From a virus: a stretch of DNA of 49,354 nucleotides. The notes beneath the pieces were generated by a model, which did not search any database, had not been told where the DNA came from, and saw nothing but the letters and a program-made list of their open reading frames with translations. The stretch spans positions 1-49,354 of the IMG/VR virus record IMGVR_UViG_3300047317_001192. One strand, 5' to 3'. A program made the translations under genes and the position numbers. The stretch's first letter is position 1; each line of letters begins with the position of its first letter. Positions 9,407 through 48,039 of this stretch are shown here, piece by piece.

Positions 9407-10339
9407 TTAAGCGGCCTTCGGGTTTGTGGGGCCGGTCACCCACGGAAGCATCGCGCCCTTCGTGCTGCGCATGGCGCGGATGTCGCGGGCGAGCTTGGCG
9501 GCAGCCCAACCGATCTCAAGGTCGACCCAGTACAGGGTGCAGTCGGCGGAGCCCGCAGGCAGGTTGATGATGATCCCCCACTTCTGGGACACCTCGGGCA
9601 GGGGCGTGTATGCCTGGGCCGCTTCGTCCGCCGGCACCTGCCGCTTCTTCCAGGCTGCGAACGCCTTCTTGTCCGCCGGGTCCACGGGGAAGCGGCTGTA
9701 GTCGTACAACTCGCCCCGGCTGTAGACCGCGAGCTGAGAAGCCATCTTCAGGGCGCCGTACTGGACGCTGCCCGTCTTCAGGTCACCGATGAAGTTGCCC
9801 TCGACGTGCTCGCCCTCTGGGCCAGGACCGGCGTATTCAAGGAGCCTGTCGAAGGTTCCGCCCGTGCCCAGCTCGGGGACCACGATGAACCGCTCAACGG
9901 CCTTCACGTCGAACTCGACCGTCGCGCCTAGGTAGGCGGCCATGTCGAGCTGGTCGCGTACGGAGGTGCCGGCGGGCAGAGGGTCACCGCGGTCTACGTG
10001 CTCCGACAGCACGTGAAGGTGGGTGCCCTTCTCGCGCTTCGTGTTGGCTCCGGCGATGTCGATCGCCTGCTCGGTCAGCGCGTTCAGCCTGCGCTTGTCG
10101 TCCGGCTCCTCGGGGTCGAGCTGCCTCACCACGTCCAGCATGGACGGACGCTTCGCCGCCCCTAGCAGGGTCATGCGCTTGTGCCAGTCGGACAGGGCAG
10201 TCTTGTCTTCGATGCAGTCGATGAACGTCGTCGTGCGGGTCAGTGGCACCGGCTTGCCGCCCTGCTTCGGTATGACGAGCGGCCGGTCCCAGCCGTCACG
10301 GGGGACGGTCGGCGTCGGTGTCAGGTCGACGATTCTCAA
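9407..10339 (-). CDS. RecB/Cas4-like PD-(D/E)XK exonuclease
   Basis: A 310-residue nuclease. The C-terminal half has the PD-(D/E)XK order: H in GTHLHVLSEH, D in GGTFDRLLEY, then NFIGDLKTGS (D-x-K) and the QLAVYSRGE helix typical of RecB/Cas4-type exonucleases. It probably processes DNA ends in phage recombination. TTG start at 10339 overlaps the previous stop as TTGA. The longer upstream frame is a repeat-rich shadow. A gene of this type lies near the repressor in L5-like phages, as here. Confidence 0.75.
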   Translation of the reverse strand: MRIVDLTPTPTVPRDGWDRPLVIPKQGGKPVPLTRTTTFIDCIEDKTALSDWHKRMTLLGAAKRPSMLDVVRQLDPEEPDDKRRLNALTEQAIDIAGANTKREKGTHLHVLSEHVDRGDPLPAGTSVRDQLDMAAYLGATVEFDVKAVERFIVVPELGTGGTFDRLLEYAGPGPEGEHVEGNFIGDLKTGSVQYGALKMASQLAVYSRGELYDYSRFPVDPADKKAFAAWKKRQVPADEAAQAYTPLPEVSQKWGIIINLPAGSADCTLYWVDLEIGWAAAKLARDIRAMRSTKGAMLPWVTGPTNPKAA

Positions 10340-10749
10340 GCGGCGATCTCCATCTCTTCGGCGGTGGTGGGAGTGTCTTCGAACGGGTCCTCGGGGTCGG
10401 TCGGCACCAGCCACATGCGGACCGAGCCGTCGTCGAGAAGCTCCGGTTCGTGCTCTTCGTCGGTCAGCGGCTCCAGGCCCGCGAGGCTCAGCTCGTACAG
10501 GGCCTCCCGTACGGGAGCGGCCGGGGTGTTCGGGGCGATGATCAGGGCGCAGTCCCAGTCGGCGGGGTTGCCGACAACTGACAGACCGGGCAGTAGGTTC
10601 AACTTAATACTGTGCAGCGGCTCGCCCGGCGAGTAGAGATCCGGCAGGGTCACCTCGGGCGGAACGTCTTCCCCGTCTCGCAGAAACGGGCCCGTGTCGT
10701 CGCGGTACTTCCCTGGCTCCACGCCTGCGTTGCGCGTGGTAAGCGACAT
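10336..10749 (-). CDS. Phage hypothetical protein
   Basis: A 137-residue acidic protein starting with ATG. There is a beta-rich middle (LHSIKLNLLPGLSVVGNPADWDCALIIAPNTP) and a very acidic C-terminus (DPEDPFEDTPTTAEEMEIAA). It begins the operon that continues through the exonuclease with a TTGA overlap. No family recognised. The upstream gap contains a plus-strand stoperator-like site. Confidence 0.55.
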   Translation of the reverse strand: MSLTTRNAGVEPGKYRDDTGPFLRDGEDVPPEVTLPDLYSPGEPLHSIKLNLLPGLSVVGNPADWDCALIIAPNTPAAPVREALYELSLAGLEPLTDEEHEPELLDDGSVRMWLVPTDPEDPFEDTPTTAEEMEIAA

Positions 10750-10998
10750 AGCCTGGCCCCCCTGGTGTAAACATGGAACTTACGACCACTGTTCTATGTG
10801 GTGTGCACGCAGAGTGTCAATCTGCGTCCGGTGCGCAAGTTGGCGATCCGGGGCGCGGTGCTTACGCACGCCCCTCACGCTTAGGTAAACCCTACGCAAC
10901 CCCAGGTCAGGGGCCTATGCGACCTGAGAATGAGAAAGCCCCCGCCTAGATCAGACAGGGGACTCATGCGAACAGTCGTTCGAGCGTTTGGGGTCGCA
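10750..10998. promoter_or_regulatory. Intergenic region between repressor and replication genes
   Basis: No convincing gene. It holds a plus-oriented stoperator-like site (10766-10780), a CAGGTC/GACCTG hairpin (about 10903-10926), and a CCCCC...GGGG hairpin (about 10939-10961) just past the repressor stop that could end its transcript. It probably also contains the promoter of the leftward replication operon, but no clear -35/-10 pair could be fixed. Confidence 0.4.
10766..10780 (+). promoter_or_regulatory. Stoperator-like site
   Basis: Reads TGTAAACATGGAACT on the plus strand, facing away from the leftward operon that begins at 10749. Confidence 0.5.
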
Positions 10999-11481
10999 TC
11001 AATCGCGGGCCTTGTTGCCGGTCTTGCTCGCGGGCTTCCGGATGAACTCGGCGTCGCCGTCCTCGCGGGGCACGTAGAAGAAGCCGTCCTCGGTGTCCGG
11101 GTCGTAGTGCACAACGAGGCTGTCGTCTTCGAGCATGCGCTTCCAGGACGCAAGGCGCTTCGCGTCGCGGTCCGAGATCGTGGCCCGGGGCTTCTTGCCC
11201 TCGGCCTCCGCCTGTTCCTGAGCCCGGCGGCGCCCTTCAGCGCGCAGCATGAGTGCCGGGTACAGATGTCGGTGCTCGTCCTTGACCTTCCAGGGAATCA
11301 GGTCATCGGCCCGGAGATTCCGCCGGTCAAGGCCCCTGCGGCGCCGGAAGGCTGACCACATGGGGATGGTCGTTTCGATGCCGTACTTCTCGCGGTACTG
11401 CTCCTGCATCCACGGGTACGTGCGGTCTTCCTCGAACCAGCGGATGACTTCCGATTCGTCAACGATCTTCGACTGCGCCAT
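10999..11481 (-). CDS. L5 gp71-like immunity repressor
   Basis: A 160-residue DNA-binding protein. The N-terminal half contains a helix-turn-helix-like stretch (about residues 10-50, EVIRWFEEDRTYPWMQEQYREKYG...MWSAFRRRRGL). The C-terminal half, DAKRLASWKRMLEDDSLVVHYDP followed by GFFYVPRED, matches the conserved pattern 'KRL-SW-ML-DD-LV--DP...F-YVPR' that I recall from mycobacteriophage L5 gp71-type repressors. Those proteins bind asymmetric 13-bp stoperators scattered through the genome, and a similar scattered 15-bp motif is present here. It stands alone between regulatory gaps, as expected of a repressor. ATG start. Confidence 0.7.
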   Translation of the reverse strand: MAQSKIVDESEVIRWFEEDRTYPWMQEQYREKYGIETTIPMWSAFRRRRGLDRRNLRADDLIPWKVKDEHRHLYPALMLRAEGRRRAQEQAEAEGKKPRATISDRDAKRLASWKRMLEDDSLVVHYDPDTEDGFFYVPREDGDAEFIRKPASKTGNKARD

Positions 11482-11590
11482 GTGTCCCCCTTCGGTGGCG
11501 TATTGGCCCCATCCCCGGGTGGTCTCATCCTCGGGGATGAGCCCGGAGCTTTGGTTGTCGGAGTAAAGGTTGACCTTCGGATGCTGGTCA

Positions 11591-11605
11591 TGTCAAGCTG
11601 AGACC
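11591..11605 (+). promoter_or_regulatory. Stoperator-like site
   Basis: Reads TGTCAAGCTGAGACC on the plus strand, upstream of the HTH gene at 11695. Confidence 0.5.
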
Positions 11606-11628
11606 CGACAGGAGCTGTCACTTAGCTA

Positions 11629-11643
11629 TGTAAATAGGTGACC
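11629..11643 (+). promoter_or_regulatory. Stoperator-like site
   Basis: Reads TGTAAATAGGTGACC on the plus strand, 38 bases after the start of the previous site and upstream of 11695. Confidence 0.5.
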
Positions 11644-11694
11644 CCGGCGGTGCGTCAACACCCCGGGGTCCGGCACCAGGAGCTAGCACTCCCA

Positions 11695-12645
11695 ATGCAG
11701 ATCCATCGTATCCCGACGCATGAGCGGGACTTCGTGATCATCGCCAATAAGGCGATCCAGGACCCGCGCATCTCCCACACGGCGCGCGGCATCCTCGCCC
11801 TTGTCCTGTCCCTGCCCAGCGGGGTCAAGGAGAACGTTCGCACCCTCTCCGACAACTACCCGCAGGGCCGATCTGCGGTGGCCAAGGCCGTCAAGGAGCT
11901 GCGCGAGTTCGGGTACTGGGTGACCAAGACCGCCCGCGACGAGGAGACGGCTCAGATCGTCTCGACCGTGGACGTGTACGAGCTGCCGCATCTGGCCTCT
12001 GTCCCGGTTCCCACCCGCCCGGTCACCGGCCGTCCGGCCACTCGTAAGGCGGGAACGTCCCCTTACGGGGAAAAGGGTCCTTCAAAGGACGGGGACAAGA
12101 ACCCTCCCTTCCCTCCGGCTGAGCCCGTCCAGGACGAGGCCGCGCCGTTCGGGGCTCAGGAGAGGGAGGGCTCCAGCGAGAAGCAGGACCAGAACGACAA
12201 GCAAGCTGCCGAGGCTGCCCGCATCCTGCGCCGCTTCGCCGCGATCGACACCCGCTTGAGGCTGTCCGACCGGCAGGTAAACAAGATCGTTCCGCAGGTC
12301 GCCGACTGGCTCGACCGTGGCGCCACCATTGCCGAGATCACTGACGCCGTGACGCAGGGCCTTCCCTCGAAGGTCTACTCGGCCTCGAAGCTGATCGCTG
12401 ACCGCCTCGACCGTAAGCGGCCCGATCGCAAGCGGCAGTGGAAGAGCTACGCCGAGTGCTCCGGCGGCTGTGGCGGGCTGCTGCCCGCTGGCCAGGACAC
12501 GGGTATTTGCGGCGACTGCGCCCTCGGCACCACCGTCTTCGAGATCGACTGCACCACGGGCGAAATCACTGACCACGCGCCGCTTCCCGTCATGCCCGAC
12601 GTGGCCGCCCGCGCTGCCGAGCTTCGCGCCGCCCTGCGGGCCTGA
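11695..12645 (+). CDS. Helix-turn-helix protein with C-terminal zinc ribbon
   Basis: A 316-residue protein. Residues about 1-85 form a winged-helix region (MQIHRIPTHERDFVIIANKAIQDPRISHTARGILALVLSLP...NVRTLSDNYPQGRSAVAKAVKELREFGYW). This is typical of HTH proteins found in Streptomyces chromosomes and integrative elements. A Pro/Lys linker follows, then a helical domain. Near the end a CSGGCGGLLP...CGDC cluster suggests a zinc ribbon. The role is probably in regulation or replication initiation. ATG at 11695 was chosen because family members start there; AGGAG lies 14 bases upstream. Confidence 0.6.
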   Translation: MQIHRIPTHERDFVIIANKAIQDPRISHTARGILALVLSLPSGVKENVRTLSDNYPQGRSAVAKAVKELREFGYWVTKTARDEETAQIVSTVDVYELPHLASVPVPTRPVTGRPATRKAGTSPYGEKGPSKDGDKNPPFPPAEPVQDEAAPFGAQEREGSSEKQDQNDKQAAEAARILRRFAAIDTRLRLSDRQVNKIVPQVADWLDRGATIAEITDAVTQGLPSKVYSASKLIADRLDRKRPDRKRQWKSYAECSGGCGGLLPAGQDTGICGDCALGTTVFEIDCTTGEITDHAPLPVMPDVAARAAELRAALRA

Positions 12646-12692
12646 CGCCTGCCCTCGACTTCACCCCTGCACTGCCCTTGAAAGGCACACCC

Positions 12693-13379
12693 ATGTCTAC
12701 GTCTGCCCGCCTGCCCTGGTACGCCTACATCGTCGGCGCCCTCGTCCTGGCCGTCGCCCTCGCAATGTCCGCCCCCGGCGAGTACCAGCTCGCCCGCGCT
12801 GCCGGATGGGGCGAGTTCGTCGCCGCCGGCATGCCGATCTGTATGAGCGTGTACGCCGTCGTCGCCGTGTGGTTCACCGAGAACCGCGCGAAGGGCGAGA
12901 AGGGTCGGGGCTCGGCCGTGGCGGGAGCCATCGGCGCCCTCGGGATGACCCTGACCGGTCAGGTGGTCGCCCACTGGATAGCGGCCGGATACATGACCTC
13001 CTCGAAGGAGCTGGTCGCCGCCGTCTCCGCCGTCCCGGCCATCGTCGCCGGTCACGTCGCGCACATGGTCATCCGCTCTACGCGCCCCGTGGAGGCCGAG
13101 GCACAGCAGGCCGTCGAGGACCAGGACCAGGGTGAGGCTGCCGTGCCGGTTCAGCCGACCCTCGACGGCACCGAGCCGCCGGTCGATGAGGTGGCCAAGC
13201 GTCGCGCAAGGCGCCGCCCCGGTCGCCCCGCTCCCAGCCTTGAGGAGATCCGCCAGGCCGCCGAGACCCTGGCCGCCAAGGGTGAGGAGGTGACGGGGCC
13301 CGCCCTGGCGAAGGTCATGGGCCGGGATCGTCGGACCGGCAGCCGCTACCTGAAGAAGCTCAACGCCAAGACCGCCTGA
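12693..13379 (+). CDS. DUF2637-like membrane protein with C-terminal HTH
   Basis: A 228-residue protein. The first about 125 residues contain about four membrane helices (YAYIVGALVLAVALAMSAPGEYQLA; FVAAGMPICMSVYAVVAVWF; AVAGAIGALGMTLTGQVVAHWIAA; LVAAVSAVPAIVAGHVAHMVI). A polar Arg/Pro linker follows, then GPALAKVMGRDRRTGSRYLKKL, a small HTH. This architecture resembles DUF2637/Spd-type proteins of Streptomyces plasmids and integrative elements. ATG at 12693 has AAAGG upstream. It is linked to the HTH gene by a 47-base gap. Confidence 0.55.
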   Translation: MSTSARLPWYAYIVGALVLAVALAMSAPGEYQLARAAGWGEFVAAGMPICMSVYAVVAVWFTENRAKGEKGRGSAVAGAIGALGMTLTGQVVAHWIAAGYMTSSKELVAAVSAVPAIVAGHVAHMVIRSTRPVEAEAQQAVEDQDQGEAAVPVQPTLDGTEPPVDEVAKRRARRRPGRPAPSLEEIRQAAETLAAKGEEVTGPALAKVMGRDRRTGSRYLKKLNAKTA

Positions 13380-13456
13380 CAACTGCGACCCGCACCGCGT
13401 CCGTGAGGGACAATCTTTACAGCGAGAGTCCCCACGGGCGAGGAGACAGCGGAGGA

Positions 13457-13810
13457 ATGGACGTAACGATCACAGTGCGCGTATGCGACATCTGTAAGCG
13501 ACAGGACAGGAACGCAACTCGCTACACCCTCACACCCGATGAAGGAGAGTCCCGTCAGCGGGACCTTTGTGACGAGGACGCGGCGGCCGTGCTCGCGATC
13601 TTCGTCGAAGACGTTGAAGAGGTGAGCGAAGGCGACTCCACGGACGCGCCTGCACCGCGCGAGCCTGCGGCGAAGAAGGCCGCTGCCAAGAAGACGCCCG
13701 CGAAGAAGGCCCCAGCGAAGACGGCCACCCGTCGACCCCGGCGTACCCCCGTCAGGACGATGGAGGAGATCGCGGCGGAGAAGAAGGCGAAGGCCGCCGA
13801 GCAGTCCTGA
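13457..13810 (+). CDS. Zinc-ribbon protein with histone-like Lys/Ala tail
   Basis: A 117-residue protein. The N-terminus has a CxxC pair (RVCDICKRQDRNATRYTL) and a later LCDED. The C-terminal half is AAKKAAAKKTPAKKAPAKTATRRPRRTP, a basic H1-like tail. It may bind DNA, recalling Lsr2-associated or HU-tail proteins. ATG at 13457 has GGAGG just ahead; an in-frame GTG at 13403 is less likely. A degenerate stoperator-like site in the opposite direction lies at 13407-13421. Confidence 0.55.
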   Translation: MDVTITVRVCDICKRQDRNATRYTLTPDEGESRQRDLCDEDAAAVLAIFVEDVEEVSEGDSTDAPAPREPAAKKAAAKKTPAKKAPAKTATRRPRRTPVRTMEEIAAEKKAKAAEQS

Positions 13811-13821
13811 GACGACAGAAG

Positions 13822-13861
13822 GCGCCCCCCTGCCGACCCGCGAGGGCCAACAGAGGGGCGC
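13822..13861. terminator. Bidirectional terminator between convergent operons
   Basis: GCGCCCC and GGGGCGC arms around a long loop fill the gap between the rightward gene ending at 13810 and the leftward late operon ending at 13866. Confidence 0.55.
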
Positions 13862-13865
13862 TGTG

Positions 13866-14075
13866 TTACTCAGTCTCGTCGGAGCCCGAGCCCTCGACCA
13901 GGCCGAGCGCGGTCGCTACCTGGACGATCAGGGCGACCTCGGGCCGGTCGGCGTAGACGATGGCGGCGACGCTCACGATCACGCCCAGGGCCGAGATGAC
14001 GGCCCCGACGCGCGAGCGGTAGCGGACGGGCAGGACGGACACGAGAACGGATGCGGGGCGGCGATGCTTGCTCAT
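13866..14075 (-). CDS. Putative holin
   Basis: A 69-residue membrane protein. A basic N-terminus (MSKHRRPASV) is followed by two hydrophobic segments (VGAVISALGVIVSVAAIVYA and VALIVQVATALGLV) and an acidic tail (EGSGSDETE). This is the size and topology of a small two-segment holin, which would make holes in the membrane to release the endolysin. It starts with ATG overlapping the endolysin stop (ATGA). Being next to the endolysin is the main support. Last gene of the late operon. Confidence 0.7.
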   Translation of the reverse strand: MSKHRRPASVLVSVLPVRYRSRVGAVISALGVIVSVAAIVYADRPEVALIVQVATALGLVEGSGSDETE

Positions 14076-14875
14076 CGGCGGCCCGCCTGCTTCTGGAGAG
14101 CTATGAAGCCCTGCGGCCCGATCTTCGGGTCGTGCAGGCCGCTGCGGTACTTCGGGTTCCGGTCGTGGAAGCGGGCCACAGCACGCTGGGTCTCCGGACC
14201 GTAGAGGTTCGTCACCGAGCCCTTGATCGGCCCGTACCCCGCCTTGATGAGGAGCTGCTGAAGCTCGGGCACCTGCTTGTGGTGCACGCCCGGCTTCACG
14301 GCCGAGTTGAGGGCGACGATCGAGGTCTTCACCGCAGTGGGCTTCGGCGTGGTCGCCTCGGCCTTGGGTGCCTTGTCCTTCCAGGCCGGGTCGGCCGACT
14401 TGATGCCCTCGGCGAAAGCCGGGTACCCGTAGCCGTAGACGTACGAGTCCTTGCGGCGCCGCTTCTTCTCGTACACGCCGTCGCCCTCGGCGCCGCCGTC
14501 GTCGTTGGTGTTGCCCTCGATCGTGTAGATGAACTCGGCGTCGTAGTCGTAGACCAGGCCGGTGTGAGTCCCGCCGCCGGCACCGAAGAACACCTGCGCG
14601 CCCACGGCCGGATACGTGCTGAACTGCTTGCGCTGCTTGAACCAGGCGACGCCGGTCTCGCACGACGCGGTACGCGGGTACAGGGCGGCGAGCCCGGCCT
14701 TCATCGCGCTCCAGGACACGAACGTCGCGCACCACGCCTGGAAGTCGCTCCACTCCAGGCCGGGCGTCTGGTCGCTGTACTTCTGGTCGTTGTTCCAGTG
14801 ACCGGACTTCCGGCCCTCGTGGTAGCCCTTCTCGGCGCGGGCGATGCCGAGGATCTTCTGAGCCTGGGTGGTCAA
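14072..14875 (-). CDS. Endolysin (CHAP amidase/peptidase plus peptidoglycan-binding domain)
   Basis: A 267-residue lysis enzyme. The N-terminal about 145 residues are a CHAP domain with the catalytic Cys in AWCATFVSW (about C49) and His in GGGTHTGLV (about H114). A charged, Pro/Lys linker follows. The C-terminal about 70 residues match a PG_binding_1 repeat (QVPELQQLLIKAGYGPIKG...YGPETQRAVARFHDRN). It cleaves cell-wall peptides. There is no signal peptide, so a holin is needed; a holin-like gene overlaps its end. A terminator-like hairpin lies just upstream. Confidence 0.88.
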   Translation of the reverse strand: MTTQAQKILGIARAEKGYHEGRKSGHWNNDQKYSDQTPGLEWSDFQAWCATFVSWSAMKAGLAALYPRTASCETGVAWFKQRKQFSTYPAVGAQVFFGAGGGTHTGLVYDYDAEFIYTIEGNTNDDGGAEGDGVYEKKRRRKDSYVYGYGYPAFAEGIKSADPAWKDKAPKAEATTPKPTAVKTSIVALNSAVKPGVHHKQVPELQQLLIKAGYGPIKGSVTNLYGPETQRAVARFHDRNPKYRSGLHDPKIGPQGFIALQKQAGRR

Positions 14876-14901
14876 GGGGTCGTTCTCCTTCGGGACATGC
14901 G

Positions 14902-14931
14902 AAAGGCCCCGTCCGTGGGGACAGGGCCTCG
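14902..14931 (-). terminator. Hairpin upstream of the lysis genes
   Basis: Read on the minus strand: AGGCCC...GGGCCT arms, followed by TTTC. One mismatch in the extended stem. It separates the tail genes from the endolysin and may lower read-through. Confidence 0.5.
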
Positions 14932-14947
14932 GGGAATGAGGGGGGTC

Positions 14948-15298
14948 TTAGGGGGTGGGGGTGGTCGTCGAGATGTGCGTGTCGAGACGTTCCGACACGG
15001 CTAGGCGCTCGATGCGCTCGTGGGACAGTTCGGCGCGCAGTTCGCGGATGTCCCGGCTGTGCTCGGCCTGGCCTTCGAGGACGCGGTCAAGTCCCGCGAT
15101 CACTCGGTCCAGGTCGTCTCGCAGGTTCGTGCTGTGCGTGTTGGACACCTGATCGCGGGCTTCCTGCGCGTGCTCGCGCACCTCGGCGATGGCTGTCCCC
15201 TGGCGCCGGACCAACTCGACGAGGACGCCGACGAGAGCCGCGGTGACCATTCCGCCGGCGGAGACCACCGCGACCTGAACGTCCGGGGTCATGCTCAA
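14948..15298 (-). CDS. DUF2746-like membrane protein
   Basis: A 116-residue protein with one N-terminal membrane segment (VQVAVVSAGGMVTAALVGVLVELV) and a long charged coiled coil (RDDLDRVIAGLDRVLEGQAEHSRDIRELRAELSHERIERLAV). Similar proteins lie between tail fibre and lysin genes of many actinophages and are called DUF2746 or holin-like. It may be a second lysis-associated membrane protein. It overlaps the fibre gene by 4 bases. Confidence 0.65.
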   Translation of the reverse strand: MSMTPDVQVAVVSAGGMVTAALVGVLVELVRRQGTAIAEVREHAQEARDQVSNTHSTNLRDDLDRVIAGLDRVLEGQAEHSRDIRELRAELSHERIERLAVSERLDTHISTTTPTP

Positions 15299-16605
15299 CG
15301 GGACAACTCCCGGAGCTTGTCCTCCAGACGCTCGATTCGATCGGCCTGGTCCTGCACGACGGACAGAAGCGCGACCCCGAGAAGGTCGTACCGCAGGGCG
15401 TCAATACGTCCCTCGTCGTCGTACGTGACGACCTCGGGAAGTGTCTCCGCGACCTCTTCGGCAATCAGGCCGAACTCGTCCCGCAGGTAGTCGTCCGAGC
15501 CCTCTTCCTTCGGGCGCCGGTCGTAGACGCGGGGACGCAGGGACAGAACTGCCTCGGGGTCGATATCGATGTCCCGGATGTTCTGCTTGAAGCGGCGCGA
15601 CGAGGTGTTCCGGGCGAAGGTTCCGTCCCCCTGCACCCACACCGCGTAATACGTCCCGGACCCGGACACTGAGTCGTTGTGCACACGCTTCGTGCCGTTG
15701 GCCCACGAGATCGTGTCCCCTGACTCCAGGTAGGACGAGTGCGTGTGGGACGCGGGGGTGAAGGTGCTCGGCTTCGAGGTGATGCTCGACCACGCGTGCG
15801 TGTGGGACGACGGGGCGAACGTGCTGGGGACGCCGGTCAGTTCCGTCCAGGCGTGGCCGTGAGCGCTCGGGACATAACTCGTCGGCTTGCCCGTGACCTG
15901 CGTCCAGTCGTGCGTGTGCGCGGACGGGGGCAGAGTCGAAGGGCGGTCGGTGATATCGGCCCACAGGTGCGTGTGCGCGGACGGCGCGAACGTCGTGGGC
16001 TTGCCGGTCAGGGTCGACCAGCTCACGTTGGAGATGAGCGCGGTCCAGGCCGTGTCGTTCCAGAACTCGAATGCGCTCGTGTCGGCGTTGTAGCCGATCT
16101 GTCCCAAGCGCGCGGACGTGGGACGAGTCAGCGTGTTCCACGCCAGGATTCGCGTCCCCACGAAGGGGCGCGTTCTCGATATGTCCGCCAACGTGATCGA
16201 GGTGACACTCGCGTTCACCGTGACCTGGGCCAGGGGCAGTTCGTAGACGGCGGTGTCCGTCTGCGTCAGCGCTGGAGGAGTCGTCGAGCCCGCGGTGCCC
16301 TGCTTCACAGCGAGGACGATGCTGTTCAGCGACGGGTCCAGTCGCAGAATTACCCGGTCGACGCGGACCGATGTGCCGGCGGCCGGGATGGTGACGACCT
16401 CGGTCGCGGTCGACTGCACCATGAAGCCACGGAGGAACGCCAGGCCGGAGGAGACGTTGAGTGTCATGCCGGTGTTGGCCGTGACGTTGAACCCGGACCC
16501 GCCGAACGAGGCCACGACGCCTGACTCCTGGAACTCCCGGAACATCTGGCTGAACTGGGTCTCGGTGACGGCCTGGGCGTCGAACGGGTACGAAGTGATT
16601 GCCAA
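15295..16605 (-). CDS. Tail fibre with S74 self-cleaving chaperone domain
   Basis: A 436-residue receptor-binding tail protein. The first about 190 residues are a beta-rich, baseplate-like region. Residues about 194-290 hold five about 19-residue repeats ending in PS-A/S-H-T-H (for example WSTLTGKPTTFAPSAHTH), known from phage fibre shafts. The C-terminus is a peptidase S74 intramolecular chaperone (NTSSRRFKQNI...EFGLIAEEVAETLPEVV...RYDLLGVALLSVVQDQ) with the Ser...Lys of the self-cleavage site. The last 25 residues are coiled coil. TTG start at 16605 with AAGGAG upstream; the longer frame is a shadow. Confidence 0.85.
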   Translation of the reverse strand: MAITSYPFDAQAVTETQFSQMFREFQESGVVASFGGSGFNVTANTGMTLNVSSGLAFLRGFMVQSTATEVVTIPAAGTSVRVDRVILRLDPSLNSIVLAVKQGTAGSTTPPALTQTDTAVYELPLAQVTVNASVTSITLADISRTRPFVGTRILAWNTLTRPTSARLGQIGYNADTSAFEFWNDTAWTALISNVSWSTLTGKPTTFAPSAHTHLWADITDRPSTLPPSAHTHDWTQVTGKPTSYVPSAHGHAWTELTGVPSTFAPSSHTHAWSSITSKPSTFTPASHTHSSYLESGDTISWANGTKRVHNDSVSGSGTYYAVWVQGDGTFARNTSSRRFKQNIRDIDIDPEAVLSLRPRVYDRRPKEEGSDDYLRDEFGLIAEEVAETLPEVVTYDDEGRIDALRYDLLGVALLSVVQDQADRIERLEDKLRELSR

Positions 16606-37932: not shown

Positions 37933-38348
37933 ACGGAGGAGAGTAGTTGGGCGTCGGCCAAGTTGCGGCTGATTGGGGATGGCGGCTCCGGTCCAAGGCC
38001 ATTCTCGTGCACGCCCTGAAGGCTGCAGCGGCCTGCCTGAGGTGGCTCTCACCTGTGGGAATGCGGCTGGTCGGCGCCGTCGCCCAAGATCCTCGTCGAC
38101 CTTGGAACCGTGGCGGAATCCGAGCTGCTAAGACCTGGCGGCCCCTCTTTCAACGCCGGCGGGGTCATACCCCCACCCATCCGTACGGGTCGGCGTGAGG
38201 GAGGGCGAGAGCGCACGCACGTGCATCGATCTGGCCAATCGGATGAATGCAGGCATGTGTGCTGTACGCGGTGATGGCGTGTGTATCAGAGCGCATGAGC
38301 ACATAGCGGGGCATGACATGACGGGCCAGGCATGGCGGACGTTGGTCA

Positions 38349-38407
<59 letters not shown>

Positions 38408-38481
38408 ACGCGTACGCATGCGCGCGGAGGAACGGGCAGGCAGCGCGTACGGGCCGGATTGGACGGACACCCCAGGGAGCG

Positions 38482-38496
38482 TGTTAAGGTGTAGCC
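38482..38496 (+). promoter_or_regulatory. Stoperator-like site
   Basis: Reads TGTTAAGGTGTAGCC on the plus strand; identical to the next site, including the preceding AGCG. Confidence 0.65.
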
Positions 38497-39254: not shown

Positions 39255-39293
39255 GGCCGCCCCTTCCCACACAGGGAGAGGGCAGGGGCGGCC
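39255..39293 (+). promoter_or_regulatory. Conserved leader hairpin, copy 1 (CACAGGGAGAG loop)
   Basis: Stem GGCCGCCCC/GGGGCGGCC (9 perfect pairs) encloses a 21-base loop containing CACAGGGAGAG. It ends 22 bases before the ATG at 39316. A TCCC-ACACA-GGGA inner stem is also possible. The loop is shared by three other leaders while the stem sequence differs. Confidence 0.75.
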
Positions 39294-39315
39294 CCTCTCT
39301 CGAATGCGAGGACAC

Positions 39316-39942
39316 ATGTCTGCGATCGTCGCCCCCTCCGAGGCCCGCTGGTACCTGATGCTGATCGTTGAGGACGCCGCAGGCGAGACGACGTACATCG
39401 ACCACTACCTCGACGACGAGCCCGCCGATGTATGGGAGTTCATCCCCGAGGGCTGGGACCTGCTCGAAGACGAGTCGCAAGAGATCATCCGAGGCGCGCA
39501 CGACTGCGAGTGCTGCGGCATGCACATCATGAACGCCCACGAGTGCGAGTCCTGCCGCAATGAAGACTGCGACCCGGCCAACTCGTGGCACTGCTTCACC
39601 GGGTACTGCGACGGCTCCGGGTGCACCTTCGAGAGCGAGTGCGAGCCGAACCACGAGGTCCGGGTCTGGCGTGAGAACGGCGACTTGGTGGGCCTGTGGG
39701 AGGTCGAGGCTCAGGCGACCGGCCGAGTCCTGGTGACGCAGCGCGAGGGGTACGAGCGCGACGCGGAGTCCCGCTTCACCTCGCTGTGGTCGGCCTGGCA
39801 ATACGCCCAGGGCTGCGCCGAGATGCACGCACAGATGCTCCGCGACGAGTGCGAGTGCGACGAGGACGACTGCGGCGTGATTCACGAGCACGGGATCTCC
39901 GTGCAGGAGGTCACCGGCAACTCGGACCTTGCTCGGGCCTGA
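39316..39942 (+). CDS. Cys-rich early protein
   Basis: A 208-residue acidic protein with a dense Cys cluster (about residues 70-115: CECCGMHIMNAHECESCRNEDCDPANSWHCFTGYCDGSGCTFESEC) and a second one, CECDEDDCGVIHEH, near the C-terminus. These would bind zinc. Between them is a beta-rich domain (EVRVWRENGDLVGLWEVEAQ). No family recognised. ATG at 39316 with GAGG upstream was chosen; the longer frame runs through the leader hairpin. Confidence 0.65.
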   Translation: MSAIVAPSEARWYLMLIVEDAAGETTYIDHYLDDEPADVWEFIPEGWDLLEDESQEIIRGAHDCECCGMHIMNAHECESCRNEDCDPANSWHCFTGYCDGSGCTFESECEPNHEVRVWRENGDLVGLWEVEAQATGRVLVTQREGYERDAESRFTSLWSAWQYAQGCAEMHAQMLRDECECDEDDCGVIHEHGISVQEVTGNSDLARA

Positions 39943-39960
39943 CCTCCTCCCCACCCCCAA

Positions 39961-40032
39961 CGCAAAGGCGAAACACCCCACTTGGGGTGTCAGCGGCAGG
40001 CGGGACCTGCCCTCTGAATGAGCCATCCGGCG
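39961..40032 (+). ncRNA. Type II hammerhead-like ribozyme, copy A
   Basis: All hammerhead core elements occur in type II order. GGC (stem II) is followed by GAA, then stem III ACACCCC/GGGGTGT with ACTT loop, U90-C91 as the UH cleavage dinucleotide, stem I (AG-bulge C-GGCAGG / CCTGCC-CT, CGGGA loop), then CTGA, ATGA, and GCC closing stem II. An outer CGC/GCG pair extends stem II. Cleavage is predicted after C39991. The deviation from the CUGANGA consensus is one extra base before GA. It lies 18 bases after one stop and about 33 before the next start. Confidence 0.75.
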
Positions 40033-40064
40033 TTCAGCACATCTACCTCGAACGCGAGGAATCC

Positions 40065-40556
40065 ATGAAGCGCGTAGTCCGATCCGCGGTGGAGTCTGCC
40101 GCCGGCATCGTCGACCAGCACCGCGAGGTTGTTGTTCTTGCCCTGACCTCCGACAGCGAGGAACTGCGCCTCTCCGCCCGTAAGGCCCGAGAGAAGGCAC
40201 TGCACTCCTTCGCCAACGAGCGCGACGACGAGTCCGGGCTCGTCAAGCACGTGGCCACCGCCCTTTCCAACCGAGTCGCCACCCCGGCCTTCTGGATCGA
40301 GCACCACTGGCAGGCGATTCTCGCGGCCGTCATCCGCCGAGAGGCCACGGACCGAGCACTCGCCAAGGCGGTCCTGAAGTGGCTGGAGACGTACGAGGGC
40401 GCGACCGACACCCCCGTCTTCGGGGTGCAGTCCTGGCAGTACAAGTTGGCCACCGCTCGGGCCCAGGCCCTCGCCGAGGTCAAGGCCGCGCTGACCGCCG
40501 TACGCGACGCACTGCGCGAGGTGGGCGAGCTGCCCCCGTACGAGTCCGCCGCCTGA
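40065..40556 (+). CDS. Early hypothetical protein
   Basis: A 163-residue all-helical protein (MKRVVRSAVESAAGIVDQHREVVVLALTSDSEELRLSARKAREKALHSFANERDDESGLVKHVATALSNRVATPAFWIEHHWQAILAAVIRR...). No membrane segment, no Cys cluster, no family recognised. The ATG at 40065 has CGAGGA ahead. It lies just downstream of hammerhead copy A, so its mRNA would have a cleaved 5' end about 73 bases upstream of the start. Confidence 0.6.
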   Translation: MKRVVRSAVESAAGIVDQHREVVVLALTSDSEELRLSARKAREKALHSFANERDDESGLVKHVATALSNRVATPAFWIEHHWQAILAAVIRREATDRALAKAVLKWLETYEGATDTPVFGVQSWQYKLATARAQALAEVKAALTAVRDALREVGELPPYESAA

Positions 40557-40569
40557 CCATCCGCTCTTC

Positions 40570-40604
40570 GGGCCTCCCTGCACACAGGGAGAGCGGGGAG
40601 GCCC
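40570..40604 (+). promoter_or_regulatory. Conserved leader hairpin, copy 2 (CACAGGGAGAG loop)
   Basis: Stem GGGCCTCCC/GGGAGGCCC (9 perfect pairs), 17-base loop TGCACACAGGGAGAGCG. It ends 23 bases before the ATG at 40628. Confidence 0.75.
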
Positions 40605-40627
40605 ACCCTCCGAGAAAGCGAACGCAG

Positions 40628-40873
40628 ATGCTCACGCCTGACGACAAGATCGCCTTCATCGCCCCCGAGTGCGGTGCCCTGTCCCTCATCCTGCGCATCG
40701 GTGACGTGGTGGTCGCCGGGTTCTTCAGCCCCGACCTGACCGAGCCCATGGGCGAGGTGGTGTCGACCTTCGACCTGCCGACCTACGCCGAGCGGGAGTC
40801 TGCCGCGAAGGCCCGGATCGACGAGTTGGCCATCGTCCACATCCTCGACGGCTGGGACCTGATCTCCGCCTGA
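40628..40873 (+). CDS. Small early hypothetical protein
   Basis: An 81-residue protein (MLTPDDKIAFIAPECGALSLILRIGDVVVAGFFSPDLTEPMGEVVSTFDLPTYAERESAAKARIDELAIVHILDGWDLISA), beta-rich then helical. The GWDL ending is also seen in the Cys-rich gene's N-terminal half, perhaps a shared fold. ATG at 40628 was chosen because the leader hairpin sits right upstream. It is flanked by two RNA elements. No function assigned. Confidence 0.6.
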   Translation: MLTPDDKIAFIAPECGALSLILRIGDVVVAGFFSPDLTEPMGEVVSTFDLPTYAERESAAKARIDELAIVHILDGWDLISA

Positions 40874-40884
40874 CAGCGCCGGAT

Positions 40885-40949
40885 GCAAAGGCGAAACCTT
40901 CCGAAGGGAGGTCGGCGGTAGGTGGTCCCTACCCCCTGACGATGCCAGC
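40885..40949 (+). ncRNA. Type II hammerhead-like ribozyme, copy B
   Basis: Same architecture as copy A with different stem sequences. GGC-GAA is followed by stem III ACCTTCC/GGGAGGT (GAA loop), U912-C913, stem I (GG-bulge C-GGTAGG / CCTACC-CC, TGGTC loop), then CTGACGA, which matches CUGANGA exactly, U, and GCC. An outer GC/GC pair extends stem II across an AAA/A internal loop. Cleavage is predicted after C40913. Stem I differs from copy A at paired positions in a compensating way (GGCAGG/CCTGCC versus GGTAGG/CCTACC). It sits 12 bases after a stop and about 33 before the next start. Confidence 0.78.
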
Positions 40950-40974
40950 CCGCGTCGGTACCCACTACCCAAGG

Positions 40975-40989
40975 TGTAAACATGAAGCC
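40975..40989 (+). promoter_or_regulatory. Stoperator-like site
   Basis: Reads TGTAAACATGAAGCC on the plus strand and contains the ATG start of the DUF2786 gene. Confidence 0.65.
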
Positions 40990-41717: not shown

Positions 41718-41754
41718 GGCCGCCCTCTGCACACAGGGAGAGCGGAGGGCGGCC
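41718..41754 (+). promoter_or_regulatory. Conserved leader hairpin, copy 3 (CACAGGGAGAG loop)
   Basis: Stem GGCCGCCCT/AGGGCGGCC (9 perfect pairs), 19-base loop CTGCACACAGGGAGAGCGG. It ends 26 bases before the ATG at 41781. Confidence 0.75.
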
Positions 41755-42311: not shown

Positions 42312-42342
42312 GGTCCCCTCCCACAGGGAGAGGGAGGGGACC
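42312..42342 (+). promoter_or_regulatory. Conserved leader hairpin, copy 4 (CACAGGGAGAG loop)
   Basis: Stem GGTCCCCTC/GAGGGGACC (9 perfect pairs), 13-base loop CCACAGGGAGAGG, the shortest copy. It ends 19 bases before the ATG at 42362. Confidence 0.75.
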
Positions 42343-46800: not shown

Positions 46801-48039
46801 ATGGCCACCGTATTCCAGCGCTGCAAGGAAGATAAGCGCAGCCCGCTTTACCCGTGCGAGAAGATCCGCTGCGGCCACGACTGGACCGTGCGATACCGCG
46901 AGCCGGGTGGGCGGACTGGCCGACAGCGCGAGTCGAGCTTCCCCAAGAAGACGCAGGCCGAGGCTCACGGAAACAAGATGGAGGCCGACAAGGACCAGGG
47001 TGTCTACATCGACCCGAATGCCGGGAAGATCAGCCTGCGGGCATACGCCGAGGACTACCTTGCACGTCGAATAGTCTCCGACGCCACCTTCTCGAACTAC
47101 AAGGCTTTCATAGATAATCACCTGATACCCCACCTGGGCAGGAAGACTCTGGCCGGTGTCACCAAGCGGGACATCGAGCACTTCAAGGCATCCATCAGTA
47201 AGGTCCTGGCGGAGAGCACCGTCTACGACCGGATGAAGCTCGTCAAGCACATCTTTTGGACAGCGAAGGAAGACAAGCTGATCCAGGAGGACCCCACCAG
47301 GGAAGTGAAGAACACACCGGCGAACAATGCCGTGGATGAAGACGAGATCCCCGAGCTGTTCGAGGTGAATCTCATCCATCAGCATATCTCGCCGCAGTAC
47401 AAATTTACGATTCCCCTCCAGGCGGGCGCGGGACTACGTATTAGTGAGGCGCTGGCATTCCATACCGGATGCTTGCGTGGTGACTTCATTCGAGTCCGGT
47501 GGCAGATCAGTGCGAAAGCGCATCGTGATGACTGCAAGACAAGGCTTGTTCCGCTCAAGCACAGGCAGGAAGGTGAATACCGCGACGTCCCGGTGGCGCC
47601 TTTTATCGTCGACGAGTGCCATTCTCACGCGGCAGAGTGGACGCCGATTCCCCTTGGATTCGAGGACAAGGGCGGACGGAAGCAGATGGTCGAGGTCTAC
47701 TTCGCGCCTCGCGAGCGAGGCAAGGGCATCATGCCCACGGCCAACACGTACTCCTACCACTTCCGGAAGGCGTGCAAGGCCGCCGGTCTCGTCAAGCCGG
47801 ACGGGTCCGCGAAGTACACCCCTCACAGCCTCCGCCACTTCTTCGCCTCGACCGCCCTCGCCAACGGGGTACCGATCCATGAGGTCTCCCGCTGGCTCGG
47901 CCACAAGTCGATCAAGACGACAGTGGACATCTACGGCCACCTCGTCCCGGAGGCGTGGGACCGCTGCCGTGACATCATGCAGATGGCCATGCGTCCGGAG
48001 GCGCCGCAGGACCCATCCAACTACGGGTCCGCAGCCTGA
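46801..48039 (+). CDS. int: Tyrosine integrase
   Basis: A 412-residue site-specific recombinase. An N-terminal about 75-residue arm-binding domain precedes a core-binding SAM-like domain (about 76-175: LRAYAEDYLARRI...DRMKLVKHIF). The catalytic domain carries R213 (GAGLRISEALAF), H342-x-x-R345 (HSLRHFF), H368 (GHKS) and Y378 (DIYGHL), the standard R-H-R-H-Y set. It integrates and excises the prophage. ATG start. Base composition is less GC-rich than the early genes near the middle of the gene. att-like sequences lie just downstream. Confidence 0.93.
   Translation: MATVFQRCKEDKRSPLYPCEKIRCGHDWTVRYREPGGRTGRQRESSFPKKTQAEAHGNKMEADKDQGVYIDPNAGKISLRAYAEDYLARRIVSDATFSNYKAFIDNHLIPHLGRKTLAGVTKRDIEHFKASISKVLAESTVYDRMKLVKHIFWTAKEDKLIQEDPTREVKNTPANNAVDEDEIPELFEVNLIHQHISPQYKFTIPLQAGAGLRISEALAFHTGCLRGDFIRVRWQISAKAHRDDCKTRLVPLKHRQEGEYRDVPVAPFIVDECHSHAAEWTPIPLGFEDKGGRKQMVEVYFAPRERGKGIMPTANTYSYHFRKACKAAGLVKPDGSAKYTPHSLRHFFASTALANGVPIHEVSRWLGHKSIKTTVDIYGHLVPEAWDRCRDIMQMAMRPEAPQDPSNYGSAA

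Follow-up and report, generated by a model that had tools for sequence, protein, structure and literature searches.

Type II hammerhead ribozymes, collected in Rfam as RF02276 (Hammerhead_II), combine the hammerhead core with a stem II that is open, stems I and III that are closed as hairpins and a pseudoknot between loop I and the 3' tail. They lie at intergenic sites of phage and prophage operons, where genes are flanked by two or more copies (Perreault et al. 2011, PMC3088659). In tandem prophage sets of Agrobacterium tumefaciens, Azorhizobium caulinodans and Clostridium scindens, several copies surround single operon genes; all three sets were shown to cleave in vitro, and that of Agrobacterium did so in E. 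coli as well (PMC3088659). The (+) hammerhead of chrysanthemum chlorotic mottle viroid carries one unpaired base between A9 and G10.1 (PMC3705267). A 2017 review (PMC6155905) regarded the role of hammerheads in bacteria and phages as still open.

Here we analyse two elements, A and B, of a 49.4-kb IMG/VR viral contig from a Streptomyces virus (49,354 nucleotides, the window). Both share the features of RF02276 elements listed above, but they score below the curated cutoff, carry one extra core base each and possess a covarying outer helix beyond the pseudoknot strand that lies outside the Rfam model. They resemble the prophage sets in their arrangement around operon genes, whereas the hosts and genes differ. 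B has its extra base where the viroid hammerhead does; the latter, however, belongs to a viroid RNA, has A as its natural extra base and uses a loop-loop contact with no Watson-Crick pseudoknot (PMC3705267).

The early operon and the anatomy of the two elements

The contig terminase is 82% identical to those of the Camvirus phages Sitrop and Alsaber. Late genes (terminase, portal, tape measure) are on the minus strand and the early block is on the plus strand, with an integrase (46801-48039) at its end. The virus is a temperate Streptomyces siphophage, and A and B lie on the coding strand of its early operon. A tandem CTGC repeat (CCTGCCTGCCTG...) occupies 38332-38494 (plus strand) in the long gap preceding this operon. 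The genes flanking the two elements are:

39313-39942, plus strand: gene upstream of A, kept in relatives
40065-40556, plus strand: gene downstream of A, start codon 73 nt past the predicted cut, gene order conserved
40628-40873, plus strand: gene upstream of B, 81 aa
40982-41701, plus strand: gene downstream of B, a DUF2786/DUF7168 protein (phrog_421), start codon 68 nt past the predicted cut

From 5' to 3', each element consists of an outer helix strand, AAA, GGC of stem II and GAA (positions 12-14), followed by the stem III hairpin (A15.1 first, U16.1 last), C17 and the stem I hairpin with its bulged C, and then by CUGA, four bases including GA, GCC of stem II, a five-base strand and the second outer helix strand. 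The parts of A are:

39959-40034, plus strand: entire type II hammerhead with the outer stem II helix (39959-39963 with 40030-40034); basis RF02276, our own covariance model, alignment and pair counts
39967-39972, plus strand: 5' strand of stem II (GGC) and core G12-A13-A14, read from the sequence and invariant across 20 relatives
39973-39991, plus strand: stem III (ACACCCC/GGGGTGT), which covaries, then C17 at 39991
39992-40013, plus strand: stem I with bulged C39994; its loop CGGGA (40001-40005) is the pseudoknot partner
40014-40024, plus strand: core CUGA, inserted A (40018, 'A6a'), U7 G8 A9 and GCC of stem II
40026-40029, plus strand: pseudoknot strand UCCG, pairing with CGGG of loop I (40001-40004)

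The corresponding parts of B are:

40882-40956, plus strand: entire type II hammerhead with the outer stem II helix (40882-40886 with 40952-40956); basis RF02276 and our own model
40890-40895, plus strand: 5' strand of stem II (GGC) and G12-A13-A14, read from the sequence and invariant in the alignment of relatives
40896-40913, plus strand: stem III (ACCTTCC/GGGAGGT), supported by covariation, then the predicted cleavage-site C17 at 40913
40914-40935, plus strand: stem I with bulged C40916 and loop 40923-40927
40936-40946, plus strand: core CUGACGA, extra U (40943) after A9 and GCC of stem II
40948-40950, plus strand: pseudoknot strand GCC, pairing with GGU of loop I (40924-40926)

C3-U4-G5-A6, G8-A9 and G12-A13-A14 occur in this order in both copies and are kept in 20 relatives. 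The A15.1-U16.1 pair and H17 are present and invariant (A39973-T39990 and C39991 in A; A40896-T40912 and C40913 in B). Loops close stems I and III, stem II is open and G10.1-C11.1 lies within it. The placement of the cut after C17 is predicted from hammerhead numbering.

A previous sequence-only reading of this DNA had described the same sequences, stems, paired changes and predicted cut positions, and re-reading the sequence bears it out on all of these. It had set the limits of the elements at 39961-40032 and 40885-40949, but stem II continues in an outer helix (AACGC/GCGTT in A, GATGC/GCGTC in B), and this extends them to those listed above. The identical GCAAAGGCGAA that it had taken to be unpaired does occur exactly twice in the window, but its GC pairs in this continuation. 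It had missed the pseudoknot, which the sequence allows over 4 bp in A and 3 bp in B.

Type II identity and covariation in related phages

At its gathering threshold, Rfam gave nothing over the window; in an E-value search, RF02276 matched B with 30.9 bits (E 0.00048) and A with 21.3 bits, both below the cutoff of 37, a limit set on score rather than on anatomy. The cutoff was passed by five relatives of the same subgroup (L072, L036, L060, L011 and L037). Sub-threshold Rfam matches to HgcC, snoRNA and miRNA families were set aside as chance. Our own covariance model, whose training set includes both copies, gave 88.6 bits for A and 89.9 bits for B and matched nothing else in the window, so that no third copy was found there.

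A blastn search of the A/B region against named phages returned no match, and relatives were therefore gathered by pattern scans of viral contigs and genomes. Most of the 64 matches of the first scan were chance strings lacking the stems and were discarded; the relatives obtained in this way came from Streptomyces and Actinacidiphila. Aligning 20 distinct related phage and prophage copies (A1) showed 95% of structure cells to be paired, with two-sided changes at nine pairs. Its covariation score was 0.290 versus 0.118 in shuffles (none of 500 as high), and covariation collapsed once the pairing partners were slid. Stems I, II and III were 100% paired in the 20 relatives, with compensatory changes in I and III, and the catalytic core was invariant while the stems varied.

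The pseudoknot, a common but not universal feature of type II hammerheads, by itself reached a clade score of 0.237 versus 0.096 (2 of 500 shuffles), and one of its positions shows the pair types UG, UA, GU and CG. We compared loop I with native and swapped tails in 117 distinct type II elements from the retrieved loci; in each of the three core classes described below, the native tail matches better (0 of 500). The outer stem II helix also passes the covariation test separately. Approximately 5% of the sampled Streptomyces genomes (20/393) match the model at E <= 0.001. Streptomyces genomes L101, L102, L104, L108 and L110-L113 hold another type II subgroup with stem II GCC/GGC, in which loop I pairs with AGGCC-type or AGCC-type tails.

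The RF02276 matches, the covariation in relatives and the type II pseudoknot thus support the identity of A and B as new members of the known type II hammerhead family. The sequence-only reading had arrived at the same family, and both the Rfam model, sub-threshold here and above cutoff in relatives, and the significant covariance in homologous phages strengthen its proposal.

One extra core base in each copy

An insertion-free CUGANGA strand and stem II junction, a typical rather than a defining feature, is absent from A and B. The sequence-only reading had regarded one extra base near G8-A9 in each copy as its main doubt. The two copies differ in its location: in B, it is a U after A9 (CUGA-CGA-U-GCC), a position known to be tolerated; in A, the extra base is an A that follows A6 (CUGA-A-UGA-GCC). 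Of the 117 elements, 47 had a canonical core, 60 one more base after A9 and 10 one more after A6; these proportions depend on the search patterns used and do not amount to a census.

The base after A9 was U in 50 of the 60 elements, A in nine, C in one and G in none. In the viroid hammerhead with an extra base after A9, U raised trans-cleavage 3-4-fold, and C and G were strongly harmful (PMC3705267). The dominance of U agrees with these mutational data, and copy B has U. The base after A6 was always A (10/10 distinct elements of several phages: L124, L125, L135, L144, L160, L162, L166, L016, L068 and the window at 40018), and stems and pseudoknot were retained; in these ten, the pseudoknot averaged 4.9 bp compared to 3.4 bp with swapped tails. 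An insertion after A6 is a rare natural variant, for which low activity was measured in one natural ribozyme (PMC3088659). Both insertion positions are known from natural hammerheads that retain some activity or more. A is thus probably a real ribozyme and possibly a slower one, and cleavage is probably faster in B than in A.

A 21-nt stem I segment was found in 20 of the 47 canonical elements, 6 of the 60 with a base after A9 and none of the 10 with a base after A6 (counts uncorrected for relatedness). With the same reservation, this is a lead that an extra core base goes with a longer stem I segment.

It is possible, if rather doubtful, that only B is active in the usual sense and that A is slow, switchable or inactive as a result of its A6 insertion, a reading compatible with the explanation that we prefer below. 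The low activity of the published A6a insertion (PMC3088659) points in this direction, as do the lower Rfam score of A and a competing hairpin on its 3' side that can sequester the core. Against it stands the recurrence of this insertion, invariably an A, in 10 distinct ribozymes whose stems and pseudoknots are intact, a pattern that argues for selection on a functional RNA.

Conserved gene boundaries and hammerheads in named phages

In relatives, A lies between homologues of the genes starting at 39313 and 40065, and B lies ahead of the DUF2786 gene at 40982. Intergenic placement, coding strand and gene boundary of the copies are maintained in most relatives. In L038, L068 and L099, B does not precede the homologue of the DUF2786 gene, and the gene ahead of that homologue is a different one as well; B is thus not essential there.

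Type II hammerheads above the Rfam cutoff were also present in four named Streptomyces phages of the Arquatrovirinae: eight in Janus (L180), 10 in Alvy (L182), nine in R4 (L185) and 11 in Issmi (L183). Counting weaker matches to our own model, Janus and Alvy have approximately 11 copies each. The hammerheads of the four phages belong to the same family as A and B and likewise occupy an early operon on the integrase side, with one per gap; they differ from the window in that each phage has 8-11 above-cutoff copies, mostly with other stems. As mapped in Janus, Alvy and Issmi, almost all copies are in early intergenic gaps: ribozymes sit in 10 of 11 gaps of at least 79 nt in Janus, and a comparison of coordinates places them in 10 of the 11 early-block gaps of 80 nt or more in Issmi. 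The listed host of the R4 isolate is S. coelicolor A3(2); three very small genes in the R4 annotation (gp60.1, gp67.1 and gp75.1) coincide in position with ribozymes. Our search of the open-access literature found no paper on hammerheads in these phages.

Predicted processing of the early RNA and alternative explanations

Very probably, A and B are self-cleaving RNAs of the type II hammerhead kind, which would split the early operon RNA. This explanation takes sequence, core, covariation, pseudoknot and conserved intergenic position as observed, and from them we infer cleavage, its rate and its benefit. Each ribozyme would fold co-transcriptionally in the nascent early RNA, with stem II as the open end and loop I docking onto the 3' tail through the short pseudoknot. 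A single cut of its own strand after C17 (C39991 in A, C40913 in B) would then give the upstream mRNA a 2',3'-cyclic phosphate end directly beyond the stem III hairpin, and the downstream mRNA would begin with a 5'-OH on the stem I hairpin, 73 nt (A) or 68 nt (B) ahead of the following start codon. In this way, the operon would be divided into gene-sized messages with hairpin-capped ends. Such a role, which the sequence-only reading had proposed, fits the conserved intergenic positions and the abundance of these ribozymes in the early operons of the named Streptomyces phages, which suggests that polycistronic early RNA is cut between genes by such elements in these phages.

It is unlikely that the ribozymes are mainly selfish or neutral passengers of phage operons instead of processing sites. 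The relatives lacking B at the same boundary, with the downstream gene unharmed, could be read in this way, but coding strand, intergenic placement and gene boundary are constant across relatives, most early gaps of related phages are filled with ribozymes, and no transposase or repeat context was seen.

Nearest-neighbour energies calculated without the pseudoknot favoured rival local hairpins by 9.2 kcal/mol in B and 7.2 kcal/mol in A, and the minimum-energy folds kept stems I and III and broke stem II. Evaluated as a structure of their own, these rival hairpins showed covariation no higher than shuffles. Such folds, the strength of the GC-rich stem III and stem I hairpins, and the low activity reported for A's type of insertion in another ribozyme (PMC3088659) would suit structured intergenic elements that lack catalysis and persist solely on account of their hairpins, whether as degenerate hammerheads, as terminators or as stabilisers of mRNA ends. 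We consider this very unlikely: it is the hairpins that vary while the catalytic residues stay invariant, and conservation or covariation extends to the weak stem II, the pseudoknot and the outer helix, none of which would be of use to a stabiliser. Variants with the A-type insertion elsewhere also retain longer pseudoknots than swapped tails give. The conserved core residues, stem II and pseudoknot led us to reject the terminator reading.

Chance resemblance is a negligible prospect. Simple hammerhead motifs do turn up randomly in large databases (PMC3088659), but a scanner demanding the core, stems III and I of at least 5 bp each and a stem II of at least 2 bp found two matches in the window (A and B) versus none in 300 dinucleotide-preserving shuffles, and covariation in relatives is strong.

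Other elements in the early gaps

The remaining four early gaps of the window longer than 55 nt (up to 42361) all hold a fixed-loop hairpin with a 12-15 bp GC-rich stem and the loop ACACAGGGAGA(G):

39255-39293, plus strand: fixed-loop hairpin
40570-40604, plus strand: fixed-loop hairpin
41718-41754, plus strand: fixed-loop hairpin
42312-42342, plus strand: fixed-loop hairpin

Hairpins with the ACACAGGGAGA loop stand approximately 20-45 nt upstream of early genes, their stems varying with compensation, and recur at the same boundaries in L016, L037, L038, L043, L060, L068 and L074; those of L070 have loop variants with CACAGGGAA. They had no match in Rfam. Janus and Alvy, the two phages checked, contained no such CACAGGGAGAG hairpins.

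Sitrop and Alsaber yielded no type II hammerheads. Their early regions carry tRNA-like elements:

Sitrop (L181, NC_054676), 10153-15085, minus strand: nine tRNA-like acceptor/T-arm minihelices
Alsaber (L184, NC_054677), 10825-16034, minus strand: nine tRNA-like acceptor/T-arm minihelices

The minihelices are of the type GGGTG-N12-CNNGG-TTCGAGT-CCNNG-G-CACCC-ACT, with compensating stems such as GGGTG/CACCC, GCGTG/CACGC, GCCTG/CAGGC and GGGAG/CTCCC. They are mostly in early intergenic gaps (in Alsaber, eight of nine inside listed gaps), and one weakly matches mascRNA/menRNA (E 0.04). It is possible that they serve as RNase P-type punctuation.

It may well be, although we stop just short of calling it probable, that Streptomyces siphophages belonging or related to the Arquatrovirinae punctuate their early operon after each gene with RNA-processing elements, of interchangeable kinds that differ between lineages: self-cleaving type II hammerheads in R4, Janus, Alvy and Issmi, tRNA-like minihelices that could be cut by RNase P or a tRNA 3' nuclease in Sitrop and Alsaber, and hammerheads alternating with fixed-loop CACAGGGAGAG hairpins in the family of the window.

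A and B are thus ordinary in kind and informative in setting, and lead to a testable generalisation on early-operon punctuation. The 60 distinct elements with a base after A9 and the 10 with a base after A6 make available a natural series of core variants. With a ribozyme at the same gene boundaries in many phages and 8-11 above-cutoff copies in the early region of each of the cultured Streptomyces phages, the segmentation idea is directly testable. If it is true, the role of phage hammerheads would be message segmentation, and the hairpins and minihelices would be new processing elements.
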